55,904 nt of DNA from positions 1 to 55,904 of the forward strand of contig DYLT01000001.1 of NCBI GenBank assembly GCA_020721945.1, read 5' to 3'. Positions 27,807-41,673 of the stretch are shown here, one piece after another (positions within the stretch are counted from its first letter, which is position 1; the number at the start of each line of letters is the position of its first letter). This stretch comes from Blastopirellula marina. GTDB lineage: Bacteria > Planctomycetota > Planctomycetia > Pirellulales > Thermoguttaceae. Below the pieces are notes generated by a model that ran no database searches, was not told where the DNA came from, and worked only from the letters and a program-made list of their open reading frames with translations. Made by a program: the position numbers and the translations under genes.

Positions 27807-30800
27807 TTACGGCGTGGTCTGGATACCCAGCCGTTCTTCTTCCTCTTCCTGGATGATGATCCGCGGCGTGACCATCATCATCAGGCTTTGCGTCTCACGG
27901 CCGACGGCGACGTTCTTGAACAAGCGGTTGATGTAGGGGATCTTGTTCAGGATCGGCACGCCGAATTCGTTCCGGCCTTCGCTCAGGCGCTTGATGCCGC
28001 CCAAGAGCACCGTGCCGCCGTCGGGGACGCTCACGGTGGTGGTCACCGTGATGAAGGAGAAGGTGGGCAACTGGACCGTGGTGCCTTCGCGCCGCGTCTC
28101 CTTCTTGCTGCTCTTCTTCGTGTTGTCGTTCGGCTGGTCCTGGACACCTTCGGTCGAATCGTCGGAGGTCGTCGTTTCCGAACCGACGAACTGGAACGTA
28201 TTGACCTTGTCGATCTGGCTAAAGAACGGCACCACGGTGAGCCGGACGAACCGCCGGTCGTTCGAGACGACCGCCTGCACGGTGAGGAACGTGCCCTCGT
28301 TGAGAATGCAGATCACCGGCTGCTGGGCCGCGGCGAAATCGCCGACCACGGGGATCACGCTGATCACGAACGGGCTTTGTGAGGTGTCGGAGACGAACGC
28401 CTGCTGGCCGTTGAACAGCGTGACCTTGGGCGCCTGGAGCACGTTGCTTCGCCGGTCGCCCTGGGCGGCACTGATGAAGAAGAACGCCTCGATGTCGCTA
28501 AGGATGGCGAACCCGAGTTGGGCGCCCGCCGTGGCGTCGAACCCGCCGAACTGCGGCACGGCCAACTGGTAGCTGCCCTGCGTGAAGGGGATGTCGAGGT
28601 CGGCCGAGAAGACTCCCGGCTGCGACAGCCCCACGGTGGCGCTGGTGGGGTCGCGGGCATGATCGAGCAGATCGCGCCTGCCCTCGACGCCATTGGCCGG
28701 GTCGTCGGCCGTAACCTTGCGGCCGAAGATCATGCCGGGGTGCTCGATGCCATCGACGATATCGAAGTCGAAATCGACACCGATCCGTTCGAAGAAGTTG
28801 TCGTTGAGGGTGATGAACCGCACTTCGATCGTCACCTGGAGGTCTTGCATGCGTCGCAACTGCTCCAGGAGGTCGACGATCTCCTCATGGACTTCCTGTG
28901 TCTGGCTGACGACCAGGCTCAGGTTTGTCGGGAAATCGGCGATCGAGCCCGGTCCGCCCACCTCGTCCCAGGTCGTGGGCTGGATGGTCGTGGTGATCAG
29001 CTCGATGAGGCTGTCGAAGTCGGCCAGCGCGGCGCCGCCCGCCCCGCCCGGACCGGCATTGACCGGCACGTTCGTCGGCGCCGGCCCGCGCCCGGCCCCG
29101 GTGGACATCTGCGCCAGCACCGTGGCATCGAGGGCCGACGAGGCCGGTTTCCCATCCCGGCTGGCCACGACCGCCATCGGCGAGATCGTCGAGCCGCCGA
29201 AGGGCACGACCCCCTGGAGGCCCAGGTTCGCCGTGTTCATCGCCCCGCGGTAGGCGCCTTCCAATCCGAGCCCCGCGTTCGGGGCGAAGTTCGGGATCGG
29301 AATCACCAGGTCGGCCACGTTGTAGGTGACCGTAATGAGGTCGCTGTTGCGGGCCTGCTCGCTGGTGATCTTCAGCACCTCGTCCTTGACCACGTAGCCC
29401 AGATGGAGCGGCGGCAGGATCAGCTTCAAGGCGCTTTCGAGCTTCACCTCGTGCTGTAGGTCGATGCTGACCGGCGTGTCGGTGGTGACGCCCTCTTCGG
29501 CCAGTCCCTGCGGATCGAGGTAGATATTCACCTCGGCGAGCTTGGCGAGATAATCGACCACCTTGCTCAGGGGGGCGTTGTCGAACTTCAGCGCCACGGG
29601 GGTCTTCAGCTTCCGGTGGATCTCGACTTCCTTCTCGGAACGCCGGCGCCCCACTTCCTTGGCGAAGCGCGCGCGCCGGCCGGTGAGGTCGCGCCACGTT
29701 TTCGCATCCGGGAAGACGTAGGGTTCCGCCCCGCTGAACGGGATCGACGCCCGGTCGACCTCGGCCAGCGTGTCGAGCACCCCCTGTTCCTTCTGGTCGC
29801 GGATGTCGCGCCCCTCGGCCACGCGGCGCACCAGTTTCGCGTTGAGCACGAGTTGCTGGGCCAGCGGGCTGTCGGGATCGAGTTCCGCCGCCTGCTTGGC
29901 CACCAACTCGGCCTCGGCGTAGCGCTGCTCGTGCATCAGGTTGTTGAACTCCTCGACCTTCTGCGCGAGCTTGTTCTGCACGTCGAGCTGGTTCTGCCGC
30001 TGGCGATCCATCTCCTGGCGGACCTTCTGGTTGCGGTCCTCCAGGTCGATCTTCGGACGGTTTTCCTGGATGAACTTGCGCACGTCGGCCAGCTCGCGGT
30101 CGAGCTGGCGAATCATGCGGTCGCGCACGGCGGACTCCAACCCCGCGCCCTCGACCTTGGTCCGCGTCTGCTCCAGCAAGGTCACCGACGCCTTGGGGTC
30201 GTTTTCCAGGATGCGCCGCGCGTTGCTCAGCGCCTGGGCCACATCGGCCGCGACCTGCTTGGTCAGCAACTGCTGCTTGGCGGCCGCCTCGTCGATGGGC
30301 GAGGGCGGTCCGGGCTGGCGCGGCGGCTGAATCGCCGGCGGCAACATCTGGAGGTAATCGCGCAGCCGTTGGGCCGTGACCGGATCGAGTTCGTGGATGT
30401 GGGCGTATGCCTGACGGAAGAGTTCCAGGGCCGCCTGGGGGTCACGGGCCTTCAACGCGGTCTCGCCCTGCTGGAACAAGGCCATGCCCGTGTTGGGGCC
30501 TCCGGGCGCGGGGCCCGCCGCGGCAAGTGGGAACCGCACGCCCAGCGGCGCCTGGCCTTGCTCGGCATTGGCCATGATGTTGCGCGTCGGATCGTTCCCC
30601 GGATCGTACACCGCGCTGGCCGCGCGGCGGTCGAAGTCGCCCACCCCGTGGGCCGGCGTGACGTACTCGTTGCTCGCGGGGATCACCCCCGAAACCCCGC
30701 GCGCCGGCGCCCGACCTTGACGCCGCAGTTCGGCGAGGTGGTCCAAGAGCTGCTCGGGCCGCGGCTCGTAGGGGCTGAACACGACGCGCAGCCGCGACGC

Positions 30801-31919
30801 CTCGGTGGCCAGGCGCTCGGCCTCGTCGTACTCCTGCCACCGGAGCAGGGCGTCCGCCTGTTCCAACAGCAATTTCGCATACTGCCGGCGCCACGACTCG
30901 GTGTTCCCACGCTCGCTTCGCTGCGCCATCAGGTCGTTGAGATTCGCGATCGCCGCCTCGACCTTCTCGGGATTGTCGATCGGGCCGAAGGAGACGTTGA
31001 TGGTCCGGGCCTGCCGGGCCAACATCGACGCCCGCCGCGTGTCGCCCACGGCCAGCGCCTTGCGGGCATCGAGCAAGAACCGGTAAGCCGCCTGCGCATC
31101 GCCTGGGCCCGCCGCGGGCGCGGGACCGTAGGCGGGCGCGCCGCGCGGATCGTCTGCCGGGCCTCCGGGGAGCCGGCGACCGCTCGGCGACGGGATGATC
31201 GTGGCCTGGTCGACCGGCGGCACCCGGCGCACGCCGGGCTCCGCCGATGGCCTCGCCGCCCCATCGAACCTGGCCGGACCGAAGACCTGGGGGCCGGGCA
31301 TCTGCGGCCTGGCCGCGGCCTGCTGGATGTCCATCGCGACCTTCTCGGGGGAATCCTCGCCGGGACCGAAGTTCGCCCGCTCTTCAACGGCCTTCCGCTG
31401 CCAGTACCAGGCACCTTGCAAGTTGCCCTGGCGCAGCTCCGCGCGAGCCTTCAACAAATACGACTTCGCCGTGCTCTTCGGATCGCTGCCGGCGGGGTCG
31501 GCCGACGGGTAGGAGGCGAACGGGTCGGCCGGCGCGGTCGAGCGGCCCGCCCCGAACAACCCGAACCGTGCGCTCGGTTGGCTGCCGGCCTGCATGCGGC
31601 GATCCAACTCGCGGCGGACCTTGGCGGGCGTGTCGCCCGTGTACAAGGGATGGTACTCGACGTTCAACGCTTCGGCCTGGCGCACAAGCTGGCTGGCCGC
31701 GTCGAGATCGTTCTGCTCCATCGCCTGGCGGGCACGGCGGAGCAAGTCGTCGGCTTGAAGACGCTTGTCGCCGGACCGGGAACCGGCGGATAGCCCCACG
31801 CCGGGCCGGTCAAACGCGGAATTGGGATCGGGAGGCGCTGGCTCGGCCCACAATGGGACCGCTCCAAGCGCCACGACGACGGCGCTGAGGCCGCGAAGGA
31901 TGCGTGCGGTCGTGTTCAA
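27807..31919 (-). CDS. Giant secretin (type II/III secretion outer-membrane pore family)
   Basis: The 1370-residue protein has a signal peptide (cut near PLWAEP) and then about 700 residues of Ala/Arg/Gln-rich helical TPR-like repeats such as AKSYLLKARAELRQGNLQGAW. An N0-type domain (VALKFDNAPLSKVVDYLAKLAEV) lies near residue 770. The C-terminal secretin core has VLQAPKVTLFNGQQAFV and VPDGGTVLLGG, then NKIPYINRLFKN. It is about twice the length of GspD or PilQ. The start is TTG 31919, fixed by AAAGGAGA five bases upstream and by the signal peptide. No other secretion genes adjoin it. Confidence 0.85.
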   Translation of the reverse strand: MNTTARILRGLSAVVVALGAVPLWAEPAPPDPNSAFDRPGVGLSAGSRSGDKRLQADDLLRRARQAMEQNDLDAASQLVRQAEALNVEYHPLYTGDTPAKVRRELDRRMQAGSQPSARFGLFGAGRSTAPADPFASYPSADPAGSDPKSTAKSYLLKARAELRQGNLQGAWYWQRKAVEERANFGPGEDSPEKVAMDIQQAAARPQMPGPQVFGPARFDGAARPSAEPGVRRVPPVDQATIIPSPSGRRLPGGPADDPRGAPAYGPAPAAGPGDAQAAYRFLLDARKALAVGDTRRASMLARQARTINVSFGPIDNPEKVEAAIANLNDLMAQRSERGNTESWRRQYAKLLLEQADALLRWQEYDEAERLATEASRLRVVFSPYEPRPEQLLDHLAELRRQGRAPARGVSGVIPASNEYVTPAHGVGDFDRRAASAVYDPGNDPTRNIMANAEQGQAPLGVRFPLAAAGPAPGGPNTGMALFQQGETALKARDPQAALELFRQAYAHIHELDPVTAQRLRDYLQMLPPAIQPPRQPGPPSPIDEAAAKQQLLTKQVAADVAQALSNARRILENDPKASVTLLEQTRTKVEGAGLESAVRDRMIRQLDRELADVRKFIQENRPKIDLEDRNQKVRQEMDRQRQNQLDVQNKLAQKVEEFNNLMHEQRYAEAELVAKQAAELDPDSPLAQQLVLNAKLVRRVAEGRDIRDQKEQGVLDTLAEVDRASIPFSGAEPYVFPDAKTWRDLTGRRARFAKEVGRRRSEKEVEIHRKLKTPVALKFDNAPLSKVVDYLAKLAEVNIYLDPQGLAEEGVTTDTPVSIDLQHEVKLESALKLILPPLHLGYVVKDEVLKITSEQARNSDLITVTYNVADLVIPIPNFAPNAGLGLEGAYRGAMNTANLGLQGVVPFGGSTISPMAVVASRDGKPASSALDATVLAQMSTGAGRGPAPTNVPVNAGPGGAGGAALADFDSLIELITTTIQPTTWDEVGGPGSIADFPTNLSLVVSQTQEVHEEIVDLLEQLRRMQDLQVTIEVRFITLNDNFFERIGVDFDFDIVDGIEHPGMIFGRKVTADDPANGVEGRRDLLDHARDPTSATVGLSQPGVFSADLDIPFTQGSYQLAVPQFGGFDATAGAQLGFAILSDIEAFFFISAAQGDRRSNVLQAPKVTLFNGQQAFVSDTSQSPFVISVIPVVGDFAAAQQPVICILNEGTFLTVQAVVSNDRRFVRLTVVPFFSQIDKVNTFQFVGSETTTSDDSTEGVQDQPNDNTKKSSKKETRREGTTVQLPTFSFITVTTTVSVPDGGTVLLGGIKRLSEGRNEFGVPILNKIPYINRLFKNVAVGRETQSLMMMVTPRIIIQEEEEERLGIQTTP

Positions 31920-32143
31920 CGGGTTCTCCTTTCGAGACTCGCAGGATTCCCTTGCGGTTTGGACGAGAAGACCTCCGGCGCCTTCCGCGGAATGCGAAAA
32001 CCGCCCCGGAGCCCGGCGCACGGTCCCAACGGCCTTTGCGCCGATCGCTCCACCCGGCCTGGGCCGGCGGACGATCCGCCCGCGGAACACCGGCGACGAT
32101 AAGCTCGCACGTGTTCTTCGGGATTCGGTAGAAGAGAGCGGGA

Positions 32144-32277: not shown

Positions 32278-34836
<2,559 letters not shown>

Positions 34837-34914: not shown

Positions 34915-35502
34915 TCACGCCGCTTGCGGACTGGCATCGGCCGAGGGAGGCGGCAAGGCCGCCTCGTGCTCCGCGTCGTCTTCCTCGGTCTTGGCCGCTT
35001 GCAGTTGCTGCCGCTCGCGGCGGATTTCCAGGACCCACTTGCCGCTCCCCTCGAACCGTTCGAGTCGATCCAACTGTCGGGCGGCCTCGTCGCGCCGCCC
35101 CGTATGACGCAGAAGCGTGGCCAACAGCAGCCGCGCCTCCAGATCGCGAGGATTCCGCTCGAGAATCCCCGCCAGAAGGCACTCGGCCTCGAACCAGTTG
35201 CCTTTCAAATACTGTTCCCGCGCCTCCACAAAGGCGTCGGCGGTTCGGTCGGACGGTACGGCGCGGCCACGATCCCAGTACCGGGAGTAGACCGCCGAAC
35301 CGGCCCAAACCAAGCTCGCCAGCGCCCACATAAGTGTACGTGCGCCGCGCGGAAGAAAGTCGCTCCAGAGGAGGGTTCCCACCAAGACAAGATTCAACAG
35401 GATTGCAAAGCCCGCGGCTAGCCCCAGGCCGGCCCAACTGCCGCGATCACGCATTTGGGGTAGTCCAGGCCACCAACAAGTCGCCCACGGCATCCTGCCC
35501 AT
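34915..35502 (-). CDS. Membrane protein with TPR-like domain
   Basis: The 195-residue product has two transmembrane segments (WAGLGLAAGFAILLNLVLVG and LMWALASLVWAGSAV). A soluble TPR-like region follows: AREQYLKGNWFEAECLLAGI and LLLATLLRHTGRRDEAARQL, then an acidic tail. TPRs would face the cytoplasm if both segments insert as a hairpin. GGAGGAG precedes ATG 35502; ATGs at 35493 and 35454 are alternatives. It is probably cotranscribed with clpC, hinting at a link to protein quality control, but the function is unknown. Confidence 0.65.
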   Translation of the reverse strand: MGRMPWATCWWPGLPQMRDRGSWAGLGLAAGFAILLNLVLVGTLLWSDFLPRGARTLMWALASLVWAGSAVYSRYWDRGRAVPSDRTADAFVEAREQYLKGNWFEAECLLAGILERNPRDLEARLLLATLLRHTGRRDEAARQLDRLERFEGSGKWVLEIRRERQQLQAAKTEEDDAEHEAALPPPSADASPQAA

Positions 35503-35553
35503 GGCGGTTACACTCCTCCAATTTGGGTGCCCCCACTTCCCCCAGGCCATACC

Positions 35554-35579
35554 AACCCGAAGCGCCAGCGAGGGCCTAC
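35554..35579 (+). repeat. Dispersed intergenic repeat, copy 1
   Basis: The 26-bp unit, with core CGAAGCGCCAGCGAGGGC followed by CTAC, is preceded by ATACC, which is shared with the copy at 37647. It lies in the divergent gap between the TPR membrane gene and thiE. Copy 2 starts 67 bp further on in the same orientation. Confidence 0.75.
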
Positions 35580-35620
35580 ACCATTTTCGCGGCACAAGCT
35601 CAACACGCGGCACACGCCGC

Positions 35621-35646
35621 AACCCGAAGCGCTAGCGAGGGCCTAC
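35621..35646 (+). repeat. Dispersed intergenic repeat, copy 2
   Basis: Identical to copy 1 in 25 of 26 positions (CGAAGCGCTAGCGAGGGC core). The single change creates the palindrome CGCTAGCG. Confidence 0.75.
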
Positions 35647-35766
35647 TCCATCTTAACGGCCAGGGAATTGTAGCTCTCGCCGAATGGGGAATCAAGGCAA
35701 ACGCCGCCTTAATCCAAGTAGACAGGGCAGCTTGCGTAAACCAACGCCGTGTGAAACACTAGCAGT

Positions 35767-37458
35767 ATGGAACGCTTGATGACTGCCGCTGTCGAACGGG
35801 CGCTGGCCGAGGCCGCGGCCTGGACCGAGCCGCCGGGCAGCCGGATCGACGCCCCCGCCCTTTTGCTGGGCCTCTTGGCCGAATCGGAGTGCCGCGCCGC
35901 CTTGTTGCTGGCCGAGTACGGCATCGACCAACGGGCGGTCTGCCAGCGATGGCCGGAACTGAGACGCCGTACACTCCCTTGCGAGGTGCAGACTGATTCA
36001 CCCGAACGAGTACCTTCTTCCACGACCGCTCAGCCGGCGAAGCTATCACGGTCCTTGGAATGGTCCTGGGCCCTTGCCGCGGCTCGGCTGGCCGATTGCC
36101 CTCAGCCGATCGTCTTCAGCACGGAACACATCTTGCTGGCACTCGCAGGGGCCGAACACGAGGTGGCGGTGTGGCTTCGGGAAAAGGGTGTGGACCCCGA
36201 CGTGTTGGATGCCCAGATCCATCAGCAATACGGTTGTCACCTGCCGGCGCCCTCCGAGGCCGATGGGGAGCCCCTGGAGATGCCCGACGAAGATTCCTCG
36301 GCCCATGCGCAGGCCGAAGGGCCGGCCGGGGGAGCACGCGAGGCTAGCCGCCTTGTCGCGGGAGGTCAACCGCCGGTTTGGACCGACGAAGCCCCAGCGC
36401 CCGAGAACGCAGCGCTGCCGATGGCGGTCTTGCGCATTTTCGACGCCGAGGCCAATCGGGCTCGCGAGGGACTTCGCGTGGTGGAGGACTACGCGCGATT
36501 CGTCCTGGACGACCGGCATTTGACCGAGCAGTTCAAGTCCCTTCGGCACGCGCTTGCCTCGACACTTGCCGCGGTGCCCCTCGGGCACCGCCTGGCTGCG
36601 CGCGAGACGCAGGCCGACGTGGGCACCGAACTCTCGACGCCTTCCGAGCGACTGCGGATCGACGCCGCCGACGTGGCCACGGCCAATTTCGCGCGGATTC
36701 AGGAGTCGCTTCGGAGTCTCGAGGAGTTCGGCAAGATCGTCGGACCGGAGGTCTCCGCTCGGATCGAACAGCTCCGATACCGCGCCTACACGCTCCAGCG
36801 GGCTGTGGAAATCACCCGGACGAGCATCGCGCGGCTTGAGCGGGCGCGACTGTATGTGTTGATCGACGGCCGGACAACCCCCGAGGAGTTCGAATCGCTT
36901 GTCCGCGCTGTGATCGCGGCCGGAGTCCACGCCATCCAACTTCGCGACAAGCGTCTCGACGACCGGCAGATGTTCGAGCGTGCCCGATCGCTCCGCGAAA
37001 TGACCCGCAGCGCCGGCGTGCTGTGCATCGTGAACGACCGACCCGACCTGGCCGCCGCAACGCACGCCGACGGCGTTCATGTGGGCCAGGACGAGTTGCC
37101 TGTCAAACAAGTGCGGGCGGTTGTCGGTCCGGACGCCTTGATCGGCGTATCGGCTCATTCAATCGAACAGGCCCGGCAAGCCGTACTCGATGGTGCCAAC
37201 TACTTGGGGGTGGGTCCGACTTTTCCATCGACCACCAAGCATTTCGACCAGTTTCCTGGGCTGGATCTCCTGCGGGCGGTCGCTCGCGAGATTCGGCTAC
37301 CGGCGTTTGCCATCGGCGGGATCGATCGAGACAATCTGGCGCAAGTCTTGCGTACCGGCATTCGCCGGATCGCGGTGAGTGGGGCCGTCGGCAACGCAGC
37401 AAATCCGGGCGCTGCGGTGCGCGATTTGCTCGAGCGACTCCGGCATCCGCAGGATTAG
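35767..37458 (+). CDS. thiE: Fusion: Clp_N-like domain, ThiD2 domain, thiamine-phosphate synthase (ThiE)
   Basis: The 563-residue protein has three parts. Residues 1 to about 155 form a diverged double Clp_N domain (RIDAPALLLGLLAESECRAALL and QPIVFSTEHILLALAGAEHEV). An acidic Pro/Ala linker follows. Residues 219 to about 345 are ThiD2-like (LRIFDAEANRAREGLRVVED). Residues 350-560 are a complete ThiE, joining HMP-pyrophosphate and thiazole phosphate to thiamine phosphate. Its active-site strings are present: IQLRDK, IVNDRPD, DGVHVGQDEL, LGVGPTFPSTTK and AIGGID. An internal ATG at 36421 could start ThiD2-ThiE but has no ribosome binding site. It is divergent from the clpC operon. Confidence 0.85.
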   Translation: MERLMTAAVERALAEAAAWTEPPGSRIDAPALLLGLLAESECRAALLLAEYGIDQRAVCQRWPELRRRTLPCEVQTDSPERVPSSTTAQPAKLSRSLEWSWALAAARLADCPQPIVFSTEHILLALAGAEHEVAVWLREKGVDPDVLDAQIHQQYGCHLPAPSEADGEPLEMPDEDSSAHAQAEGPAGGAREASRLVAGGQPPVWTDEAPAPENAALPMAVLRIFDAEANRAREGLRVVEDYARFVLDDRHLTEQFKSLRHALASTLAAVPLGHRLAARETQADVGTELSTPSERLRIDAADVATANFARIQESLRSLEEFGKIVGPEVSARIEQLRYRAYTLQRAVEITRTSIARLERARLYVLIDGRTTPEEFESLVRAVIAAGVHAIQLRDKRLDDRQMFERARSLREMTRSAGVLCIVNDRPDLAAATHADGVHVGQDELPVKQVRAVVGPDALIGVSAHSIEQARQAVLDGANYLGVGPTFPSTTKHFDQFPGLDLLRAVAREIRLPAFAIGGIDRDNLAQVLRTGIRRIAVSGAVGNAANPGAAVRDLLERLRHPQD

Positions 37459-37646: not shown

Positions 37647-37672
37647 GTGGGACCTCGCTGGCGCGTCGGGTT
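37647..37672 (-). repeat. Dispersed intergenic repeat, copy 3 (inverted)
   Basis: The minus strand matches copy 1 in 23 of 26 positions and shares the flanking ATACCAACCCG. It sits in the gap before hrpA, inside an apparent upstream extension of the hrpA frame, which argues that the extension is not coding. Confidence 0.65.
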
Positions 37673-37743: not shown

Positions 37744-40700
37744 ATGTTCCAATCATCCTGGACCGACCAACTCGGTGGGCTCGAAGCGGCACTCGACCGC
37801 GCCATGCTCGCCGACCGCCACCGACTGCGGAAGCAGTTGCGCGCGCTTCGGGCGGAGGGCGCGCGGGGCAGGCCGATCGATCGCCGAATCGAGCAGTTGG
37901 CGAGCCAGTTGGAAGCGTCGATCGCTCTGCGCGCCGAGCGGCATCGGAACCTTCCACGACCCACGTGGGACAACGGCCTCCCAGTTGCCGCGCGCCGCGA
38001 GGACATCGCCCGCGCGATCCGCGATCACCAGGTCGTCATCGTTTGCGGCGAGACCGGCTCTGGCAAGTCGACCCAACTGCCGAAGATCTGCCTGGAACTC
38101 GGACGGGGGGTCGAGGCGATGATCGGGCATACCCAGCCTCGGAGGATCGCGGCGCGGTCGATCGCGGCCCGGGTGGCCGAAGAACTGGCGGTCCCCCTAG
38201 GCCACGCGGTGGGCTATAAGATCCGGTTCACCGACGCGACCGGTCCGCAGACGTGCGTCAAGCTGATGACCGACGGCATTCTGTTGGCCGAGACCCAGGA
38301 AGACCGTTTTCTGGACCGGTACGACACGATCATCCTCGACGAGGCGCACGAGCGGTCGTTGAACATCGACTTCTTATTGGGTTACCTGCGGAACCTCTTG
38401 CCTCGGCGCCGGGACCTGAAGCTGATCATCACCTCGGCAACCATCGACGTGGGCCGGTACCGCGAGCATTTTGCCGGCCCGACCGGGCCCGCCCCGGTGA
38501 TCGAGGTCGCCGGGAGGACCTATCCGGTCGAGGTCCGATGGCGTCCGCCCGCGGAGGCCAAGGACACGGGCGAGCCCGACGTGCAGCAGGCCGTGCGGGA
38601 TGCGGTCGACGAGCTGGCGCGGATCGACCGCGGCGACATGCTGATCTTCATGCCCACCGAGCGCGACATCCACGAGACGGCCAAAGCGCTTCGGGGCCAC
38701 GCGATTCCCGGCGACACCGACGTGGCGAAGACCGAGATCCTGCCCCTGTACGCCCGGCTGCCGGCGCATCAGCAGGAGCGGATCTTCCATCCCCACGCGA
38801 ACCGCCGCATCGTGATCGCCACCAACGTGGCCGAGTCGTCGCTGACGGTGCCGGGGATTCGATTCGTCATCGACTCGGGCACGGCGCGGATCCGCCGGTA
38901 CTCGGCCCGCTCGAAAACGCAGCGGCTGCCGATCGAGCCGATTTCGCAGGCATCGGCCGATCAGCGCAAGGGGCGATGCGGCCGCGTGGGGCCGGGCATT
39001 TGCGTGCGGCTGTATGGCGAGGACGACTACCAGTCGCGACCCCGCTACACCCCGCCCGAGATCCTTCGCGCGAACCTGGCCTGGGTGATCCTCCAGACCA
39101 AGGCCCTCCGGTTGGGCGAGGTCGAGACTTTTCCGTTTCTCGACCCACCGCGCCCCGACGCCGTGCGCGACGGCTATCGCACGCTTTTCGAGCTGGGGGC
39201 GATCGACGAGGAAAACGAGCTGACGGAGGTGGGCCGGCGGCTGGCCCGGATCCCCGTGGATCCGCGGATCGGTCGGATGATCCTGGCGGCCGACGAGTAC
39301 CGATGCCTGCACGAGGTGCTGATCATTGCGGCGGCGCTGGAGACGCAGGACCCCCGGGATCGCCCCGCCGAGCAACACGAGGCGGCCGACGCCTGCCATG
39401 CCCGATTCGCCGACCCCGACTCCGACTTCCTCACGTACCTCAGGCTGTGGGAGTTCTGTCAGGCACTCAAGGAGTCGGTCACGCGAAGCCAACTGCGCCG
39501 GGCGTGCCGCGAGCATTTCCTTTCGTACCACCGGATGCGCGAATGGCTCGACGTCCATCGCCAGCTTCTCGAACTGGTCGAGCAAGCCGGATTGAAGCCA
39601 GGTCCGTGGAACCACGACTACGCGGCGGTCCACCGCGCGATTCTCAGCGGCCTGTTGTCGAACGTCGCCATGCGGACCGAGGCCCACCAGTATACCGTAC
39701 CCGGCGGGCAGAAGTTCTTTCTCTGGCCTGGTTCGACGCTGTTTTTCAAGAAGCCGAAGTGGATCGTCGCCGCCGAACTGGTCGAGACCAGCCGCCGCTA
39801 TCTGCGCACCTGCGCGCATATCCAGGCCCGGTGGATCGAGCCGGTCGCGGGGCACCTGGTGAAGCGGTTCTACAGCGACGCCCATTGGGAACGGGCGAGC
39901 CAGTCGCCGGTGACCTATGAGAAGGTCACGCTGTTCGGGCTGCCCATTGTCGCGGGGCGCAAGGTGCGGTTGGGTGACGTGGACCCGGCTGCCGCGCGCG
40001 AGCTGTTGATCCAATCGGGGCTGGTCGAGGGACGGCTCGAAGCCCGCCTGGGCTTTCTCGCGCACAACCGCAAACTCCTCGACGACCTCGACCGCCTGCA
40101 AAAGAAGGTGCGCCGGCAGGACCTGCTTTTGGGCGAGTGGGCACAATTCGACTTCTACGACCGGCGTCTGCCGCCGCACGTGTACGACGGTCGGCGGTTG
40201 GTGAACTGGCTTCGCCGGGAAGAGCGGAAGGACCGGCGGGTGCTCTGCATGAGCCCGAGCGATCTGCTCCGCCCCGATGCCCCATGCCCCGATCCGGCCG
40301 ATTTCCCCGATGCGATGGTCCTCGAGCACATCGAGGCGCCGCTCGGGTACCAGTTCGATCCCGGCGCGGAGGACGACGGGGTCACGCTGACCGTGCCGGT
40401 CGAGGCCCTCAACCAACTCGATCCGCGTCGCCTGGAATGGCTGGTGCCGGGGCTTGTGGGGCGCAAGGTCGAGGCGCTGATTCGGTCGCTGCCCAAGCCG
40501 CTGCGCCGGCAGTTCGTGCCGGTGCCCGAGACGGCCCGTCGCGTCGCGGCCGAACTGCCGTTCGGCCAGGGGGGTCTGCTCGACGCGGTCGCCCGGGCCT
40601 TAAGCCGGATCGCGGGCGAGGCGGTCGCGGCGGGTGACTTCCGGCTCGATCGCGTCCCGATTGAGCTTCGGATGAACGTCCGCGTGGTCGATTCGAACGG

Positions 40701-41673
40701 AAGGCCGCTGGCCCAGAGCCGCGACCTCCGCGAAATCCGCCAGCGCCTGGGCGAGGAGACCACCCGACGGTTCGCTCGGATCGACGACCGCGCCTGGCGG
40801 CGCGATGGGCTTTGCGCGTGGGATTTCGACGCGCTGCCCGAACAGATCGAAATCCCCCAGGGCGGCCTGGCCATCAAGGCGTTTCCGATGCTGGTCGACC
40901 AGGGCGAGTCGGTCGGGCTGCGCCTGGCCGATTCGGCGGAAAAGGCGGCCGAACAGACCAAGGCCGGATTGCGGCGGCTTGTCGTGCTGGCGGTCGGGAA
41001 ATCGCTCGAAGCCGCGGTCGACTGGCTGCCAGGGTTGGAGCGGATGCTGGCCTGTGCGGCCGGAAACCCGGGCCCCGCGCTGGACCTGCGTCGCGAACTG
41101 GTCGAGCTGCTCGCCGAACGGGCGTTTCTGGCCGATCAGGCCACGCCGCGAAGTCAAGCGGAGTTCGACGCCTTCATCCGCGCGGGGCGCGAGCGGATCG
41201 GTCTGGCGGCCCAGGACCTCGCCGAACGGATGCCGCCTTTCTGGGAGGCCTACGACGAGGCGCGGCGGGCGTTGGAAGGTCGCGGCGTCGCGCGCTGGCA
41301 ATACGCCATCGACGATATGCGGCGGCAGCTTGCGCGTCTGACCGCGCCGGGTTTCCTCACGAGCACGCCGTGGAGGTGGCTCCAGCATTACCCGCGCTAC
41401 GTTCGAGCCATGTGCGTCCGCCTGGAGCGGTTGGCCAGCGGCGCGTTGGCGCGGGACCGGACGGCCTGGGCCGAGGAGATCCTGCCGCGCGAACAAGCTT
41501 ACGAACAGCGCGCGGTGCAACACCGCATCCTTGAGATCCATGACCCCGCGCTGGACCACTACCGGTGGATGCTCGAAGAGTACCGGGTCTCGCTCTTCGC
41601 CCAGCGCCTCGGCACGTCGCTGCCCGTGTCGGCCAAGCGGCTCGATCAGCAGTGGGCCCAAGTGCGCGGATAG
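37744..41673 (+). CDS. hrpA: ATP-dependent RNA helicase HrpA (DEAH box)
   Basis: The 1309-residue protein has the usual HrpA length. Motif I is GETGSGKST (residues 102-110), motif II DEAH (199-202), motif III SAT, and motif VI reads [12 protein letters not shown]. Helicase-associated and OB-like domains and a long DUF3418-type C-terminal region (ending [15 protein letters not shown]) follow. HrpA unwinds RNA and helps rescue collided or stalled ribosomes. The frame is open back to 37624, but that part contains a dispersed repeat, so ATG 37744 ([10 protein letters not shown]) is chosen. rsmG follows after 22 nt, so the two are likely cotranscribed. Confidence 0.93.

Follow-up and report, generated by a model that had tools for sequence, protein, structure and literature searches.

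A class-wide Clp_N domain on the thiamine enzyme ThiD2-ThiE of Planctomycetia, kept, lost and re-captured, hints at a link between thiamine synthesis and proteolysis

The window, the whole stretch of 55,904 nucleotides that was analysed, is a contig of a metagenome-type assembly of Blastopirellula marina (576 contigs, 91% complete), and it carries a gene, free of internal stops, in which a two-repeat Clp_N region is joined through a flexible linker to the thiamine synthesis domains ThiD2 and ThiE (Table 1; the bifunctional enzyme is called ThiDE below). The gene had been described as lying divergently 265 nt from the clpC operon, and this distance is recovered when its start at 35767 is measured from 35502, the possible ATG of the small TPR ORF that stands upstream of clpC in this and many related genomes. 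A TPP riboswitch was looked for in the intergenic region (35503..35766), with no Rfam match. The short repeat AACCCGAAGCGCYAGCGAGGG occurs on both sides of thiDE, at 35554-35574 and 35621-35641 on the plus strand and at 37652-37672 on the minus strand (three matches against 0.01 expected), and looks like a REP-type element. An HrpA-like DEAH helicase with DUF3418 is encoded directly 3' of thiDE (37747-41670, +), and downstream of clpC there is a 1427-aa frame with a C-terminal secretin domain (27810-32090, -).

Table 1. Features at the thiDE-clpC locus, in positions of the window
Feature	Positions	Strand	Evidence or remarks
Clp_N-ThiD2-ThiE fusion gene, 563 aa	35767..37458	+	Pfam and NCBIfam matches above cut-off
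Clp_N repeat 1, aa 1-66	35767..35964	+	T6 kept; E32-type phosphoarginine (pArg) glutamate lost; R11, E41 and R43 specific to the fusion; dN/dS 0.05
Clp_N repeat 2, aa 93-158, with STEHILLAL	36043..36240	+	E106-type glutamate (E120) kept; dN/dS 0.10
Variable linker, Pro/Glu/Ala-rich, aa 159-218	36241..36420	+	Alignment; dN/dS 0.64
ThiD2 domain (HMP-P kinase family), aa 223-345	36433..36801	+	PF17792, 6.4e-40
ThiE / TMP-TENI domain, aa 362-541	36850..37389	+	PF02581, 4.3e-58
clpC: two Clp_N repeats, UVR motif, two AAA modules; divergent neighbour	32278..34836	-	Pfam; conserved neighbourhood
Small TPR ORF between clpC and thiDE	34915..35502	-	
Divergent intergenic region	35503..35766	.	Two copies of the short repeat

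The initial annotation had seen in the N-terminal region of this thiamine-phosphate synthase a likeness to the two Clp_N repeats of ClpC, and profile searches of the protein bear this out, with Clp_N, ThiD2 and TMP-TENI all scoring above their Pfam cut-offs and the other family members in agreement. Clp_N (PF02861) is matched in two stretches at 28.1 bits against a cut-off of 20.7 (E=2.3e-6), and at E=1e-7 when the N-terminal 158 aa are searched alone; repeat 2 contains the STEHILLALAGAEHE string. Because the single repeats fall under the cut-off (0.013 for repeat 1 and 0.0008 for repeat 2), the evidence from one protein is modest and the evidence from the family matters: Clp_N is matched in 17 of 17 members of the order and in 21 of another 22 from the class, and family profiles match solved ClpC N-domains with E-values of 4e-19 and 4e-22. 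A single-sequence AlphaFold2 model of the domain is all-helical, but its pLDDT is 52 and it was not used for fold searches. The catalytic part is recognized by ThiD2 (PF17792, 136.9 bits against a cut-off of 23.5), by the ThiE model TIGR00693 (184.6 against 145.1) and, over the C-terminal 345 aa, by the ThiD2-ThiE equivalog NF002727 (381.3 against 335). The residues Q391, R393, K395, N423, D424, T490, K491, G517 and G518, which we take to be those of the ThiE catalytic motifs (QxRxK, ND, TK, GG), are invariant in 22 relatives. No AAA match was found by Pfam in the 563-aa protein, which is without the two AAA+ modules of the ClpC unfoldase. The gene provides the only TMP-TENI match found in its own, 91% complete assembly.

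The fusion extends well beyond this genome: it is class-wide and old. Its nearest named relative, at 89% identity across the whole protein, belongs to a Thermoguttaceae metagenome-assembled genome, and a scan of genome contigs yielded a single relative. A ThiD2-ThiE match is present in 57 of 60 relatives, with the N-terminal domain on about half of the 57, and the fusion spans Pirellulales and every other order of Planctomycetia that was sampled, in at least 15 families (f1, f2, f5, f6, f10, f13-f15, f17, f19, f21, f104-f106 and f108). The families f7 and f16 have mostly ThiDE frames of 350-440 aa with no Clp_N domain, and in the remaining classes of the phylum the domain is absent or went undetected, the frames beginning at or near ThiD2 among the matches listed, of which all but some long frames were inspected. 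Clp_N is also seen in two stand-alone proteins, one ClpC-like, 185 aa long and hydrophobic in a stretch at its C-terminus (L155:866-1420, genome G054), the other of about 150 aa (L156, genome G112), and, in the genome of the window (contig C180, L004:1-1041), in a 347-aa frame at a contig end in which one repeat is followed by apparent membrane segments.

The translation start is conserved: in most relatives the (F/L)T of repeat 1 follows the initial M after three or four residues, and ClpC itself starts likewise. In a Nei-Gojobori comparison of one pair, the window and a locus of the same genus (L037), repeat 1 has a dN/dS of 0.05 and repeat 2 one of 0.10, as against 0.36 for the stretch between them and 0.64 for the linker; the values for ThiD2 and ThiE are 0.065 and 0.118. 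Since the values for the repeats are near those of the catalytic domains and that of the linker is far higher, the Clp_N domain is evidently translated, and it is as constrained as the enzyme. The suggestion that it might be a structural relic is thereby disfavoured, and translation solely from the internal ATG at 36421, which would have left the domain outside the protein, is ruled out by these values and by the upstream start shared among relatives. A related reading is that a chance duplication of the 5' end of clpC came to lie before thiDE, perhaps providing a start region or promoter, and that the domain is a passenger which decays and is lost. It would fit the many losses, one of which has left a stump, MQYQFTPGAQRALTEAAGW...LLGLLAEPE, upstream of an intact enzyme (genome G004, locus L128), and divergent adjacency eases such duplications; but for the old domain it is largely refuted by the constraint on both repeats, the domain is retained class-wide, and in G609 the inverted repeat described below begins at the start codons with no upstream extension. 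This reading is accordingly rated as highly improbable.

The history of the domain was traced on trees of the Clp_N domain and of the enzyme core. The domain of the window belongs to a group of 38 old-type fused domains (89/92) that is separate from ClpB (100/99) and from ClpC, and it is about 31% identical to the neighbouring ClpC. Recent copying from the clpC of the window is ruled out by this identity and by the age of the clade. The proposal that the clpC module was duplicated onto thiE is thus right about the kind of event, which is seen in other genomes, and wrong about the present neighbour as the source of this copy. Three fused domains (G609, G044 and G509) place among ClpC in the domain tree. 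G609 stands in a clade of eight enzyme cores of which the other seven are without the domain (SH-aLRT 99), its N-domain shares 65-67% identity with ClpC and keeps both TEH motifs, and a 336-nt inverted repeat (70.5%) lies between its thiDE and clpC, beginning at the start codons and undetectable upstream of them; together these observations imply re-capture from ClpC after loss. A ClpC-derived domain is also carried by two members of one genus, G044 and G509 (58-60% and 50-52% identical to ClpC, respectively), and G050, the nearest core relative of G044, has one of the old type. A single clade of old and new fused domains is weakly rejected (AU p=0.04, domain tree); a single origin of the three new copies is compatible with the domain tree (p=0.35), but the core tree separates G609 and G044 widely. 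Parsimony on the core tree gives 19 gain or loss changes, some of which are contig ends (e.g. L023). The domain, then, has been lost many times and taken again from the neighbouring clpC in at least one lineage. As to its first source, the old domain may derive from the ClpC or the ClpB type, on which the profile comparisons disagree: PDB profile searches favour ClpC (72 against 62 and 83 against 60 bits), and hhalign with planctomycete sets, of which the ClpC set is narrow, favours ClpB (96 against 77).

Within the order of the window, clpC is the divergent upstream neighbour of thiDE in 39 of the 43 loci with enough sequence, and this adjacency persists where the Clp_N domain has been lost; at divergent loci the distance from the clpC start to the ThiD2 start is about 0.5-2.2 kb. 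In family f21 clpC is the divergent neighbour in 5 of 10 loci, and it is so in none of 14 loci of f104, f105, f106 and f108, nor in 4 of other classes. The four families f104, f105, f106 and f108 nonetheless retain the domain.

Clp_N is the fold through which ClpC takes in its substrates and adaptors. ClpC binds phosphoarginine via pockets with E32 and E106, and its N-domain also holds ClpC in the resting state (PMC12583610). In the old fused domain the E32 position is E in 1 of 19 members of the order, R8 and K85 of ClpC are lost, and the E106-type glutamate is kept in 19 of 19 order members and as E in 13 and D in 6 of 20 class members. ClpB has the same E32/E106 pattern, with the E106-type glutamate in 11 of 11, so its retention is not diagnostic of phosphoarginine binding. 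The fused domain has instead residues of its own, namely R11 (100%) and E41 and R43 (90-95%) throughout the class, at positions occupied by K, S and V in ClpC, and W19, C42, W62 and W136 in the order. This signature, together with the loss of E32, K85 and R8, suggests that the old domain may have left the ClpC network, and repurposing of the domain, with no remaining contact to ClpC, is the strongest rival to a role in that network: the Clp_N fold would serve ThiDE itself, in oligomerisation, in intramolecular regulation or as a scaffold that, for example, brings ThiDE to other thiamine enzymes. Both sets of fusion-specific residues, the lost E32 and K85 and the retention of the domain where clpC is not adjacent are in keeping with such a role, but the re-captured domains occupy the same place and are yet ClpC-like, that of G609 down to its two TEH motifs, so that repurposing is rated as possible but doubtful.

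Two further explanations concern ligands and adaptors. The domain could be a decoy or sponge of the kind proposed for mycobacterial ClpC2, a protein that both binds and protects against cyclomarin A (PMC10030653), taking up toxic peptides or ligands of the ClpC N-domain with ThiDE as a mere carrier. The PDB matches do include chains of ClpC2 and further chains with Clp_N only, but the old domain has diverged at the binding-site residues, and a one-copy biosynthetic enzyme would be an unlikely carrier for a sponge; the idea is improbable. Alternatively, the adaptor recruitment that was initially suggested could take the form of a docking site on ThiDE for the N-degron adaptor ClpS, of which the genome of the window has two genes. 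This version is argued against by eight genomes that keep the old domain with no ClpS match (G041, G418, G315, G296, G255, G081, G309 and G156), which indicate that the domain does not in general serve to dock ClpS, and it can be given hardly any credence. McsA-McsB, named from sequence and from a PF00217 match, is also present in the genome of the window, and McsB in 80 of 80 genomes of the class; being in every genome tested, it neither supports nor refutes the adaptor idea. The ClpS-less genomes in f21 and f6 are nearly complete, and all of them have McsB.

The explanation proposed here is that ThiDE in Planctomycetia is tied to the ClpC/McsB network by its fused Clp_N domain, acting as a docking module; it is put forward tentatively, as a possibility somewhat short of even. 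The domain would bind ClpC itself, or ligands shared with the N-domain of ClpC, ThiDE would be tethered as a client, its amount or activity tracking ClpC, and thiamine synthesis could thereby be reduced under stress. The sequence evidence that would favour docking consists of the Clp_N identity, the class-wide conservation together with the conserved start, purifying selection on the repeats and not on the linker, the adjacency of clpC and the re-captures, and the fusion of a ClpC-type N-domain in the same place more than once argues that its binding properties are in use. McsA-McsB in the genome of the window and McsB throughout the class may be counted on the same side, though they do not discriminate. 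Against docking would weigh the retention of the domain in f104, f105, f106 and f108 with no adjoining clpC and the many lineages that do without the domain. That thiamine synthesis would actually be set by ClpC/McsB through the in-built domain, and that this link was valuable enough to be re-captured from clpC, is considered unlikely.

The kept, lost and re-captured history of the domain gives a hint that thiamine synthesis may be linked to controlled proteolysis in a way not described before, and it constitutes a natural experiment which makes the question directly testable. If the domain binds ClpC or its ligands, a metabolic output would have been wired to proteolysis by domain capture, with no separate adaptor. 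Clp_N has so far been known as the front end of Clp ATPases or as a small stand-alone protein, and here it is found class-wide on a vitamin enzyme; no description of Clp_N on ThiD2-ThiE was found in the open-access literature, most subscription journals being outside the scope of the search. The components are already known, both as ThiD2-ThiE fusions and as free Clp_N proteins (ClpC2, ClpT). The ThiD2-ThiE enzymes (NF002727 / PRK02615) share the C-terminal 345 aa of the fusion, but the known model starts at ThiD2, without Clp_N; ThiD2 is a strict HMP-P kinase (PMC12345177). The ClpC N-domain (PDB 6ucr, 2y1q, 5hbn) is by profile the same two-repeat domain, of the same length (E 4e-19), and the re-captured copies are 50-67% identical to it, but the fusion has no AAA modules and its old copy lacks the E32 phosphoarginine glutamate, K85 and R8. 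Mycobacterial ClpC2 (PDB 8ad9, 9p2p; PMC10030653), a profile match, resembles the fusion in having Clp_N without an unfoldase of its own, and differs in having an N-terminal dimerisation part, in repressing its own gene and in having no metabolic enzyme attached. The plant ClpT or double Clp-N motif proteins (PDB 4y0b, 7eko), a weak profile match, likewise carry Clp_N outside a Clp ATPase, but they are, unlike the fusion, stand-alone chloroplast proteins and not enzymes.
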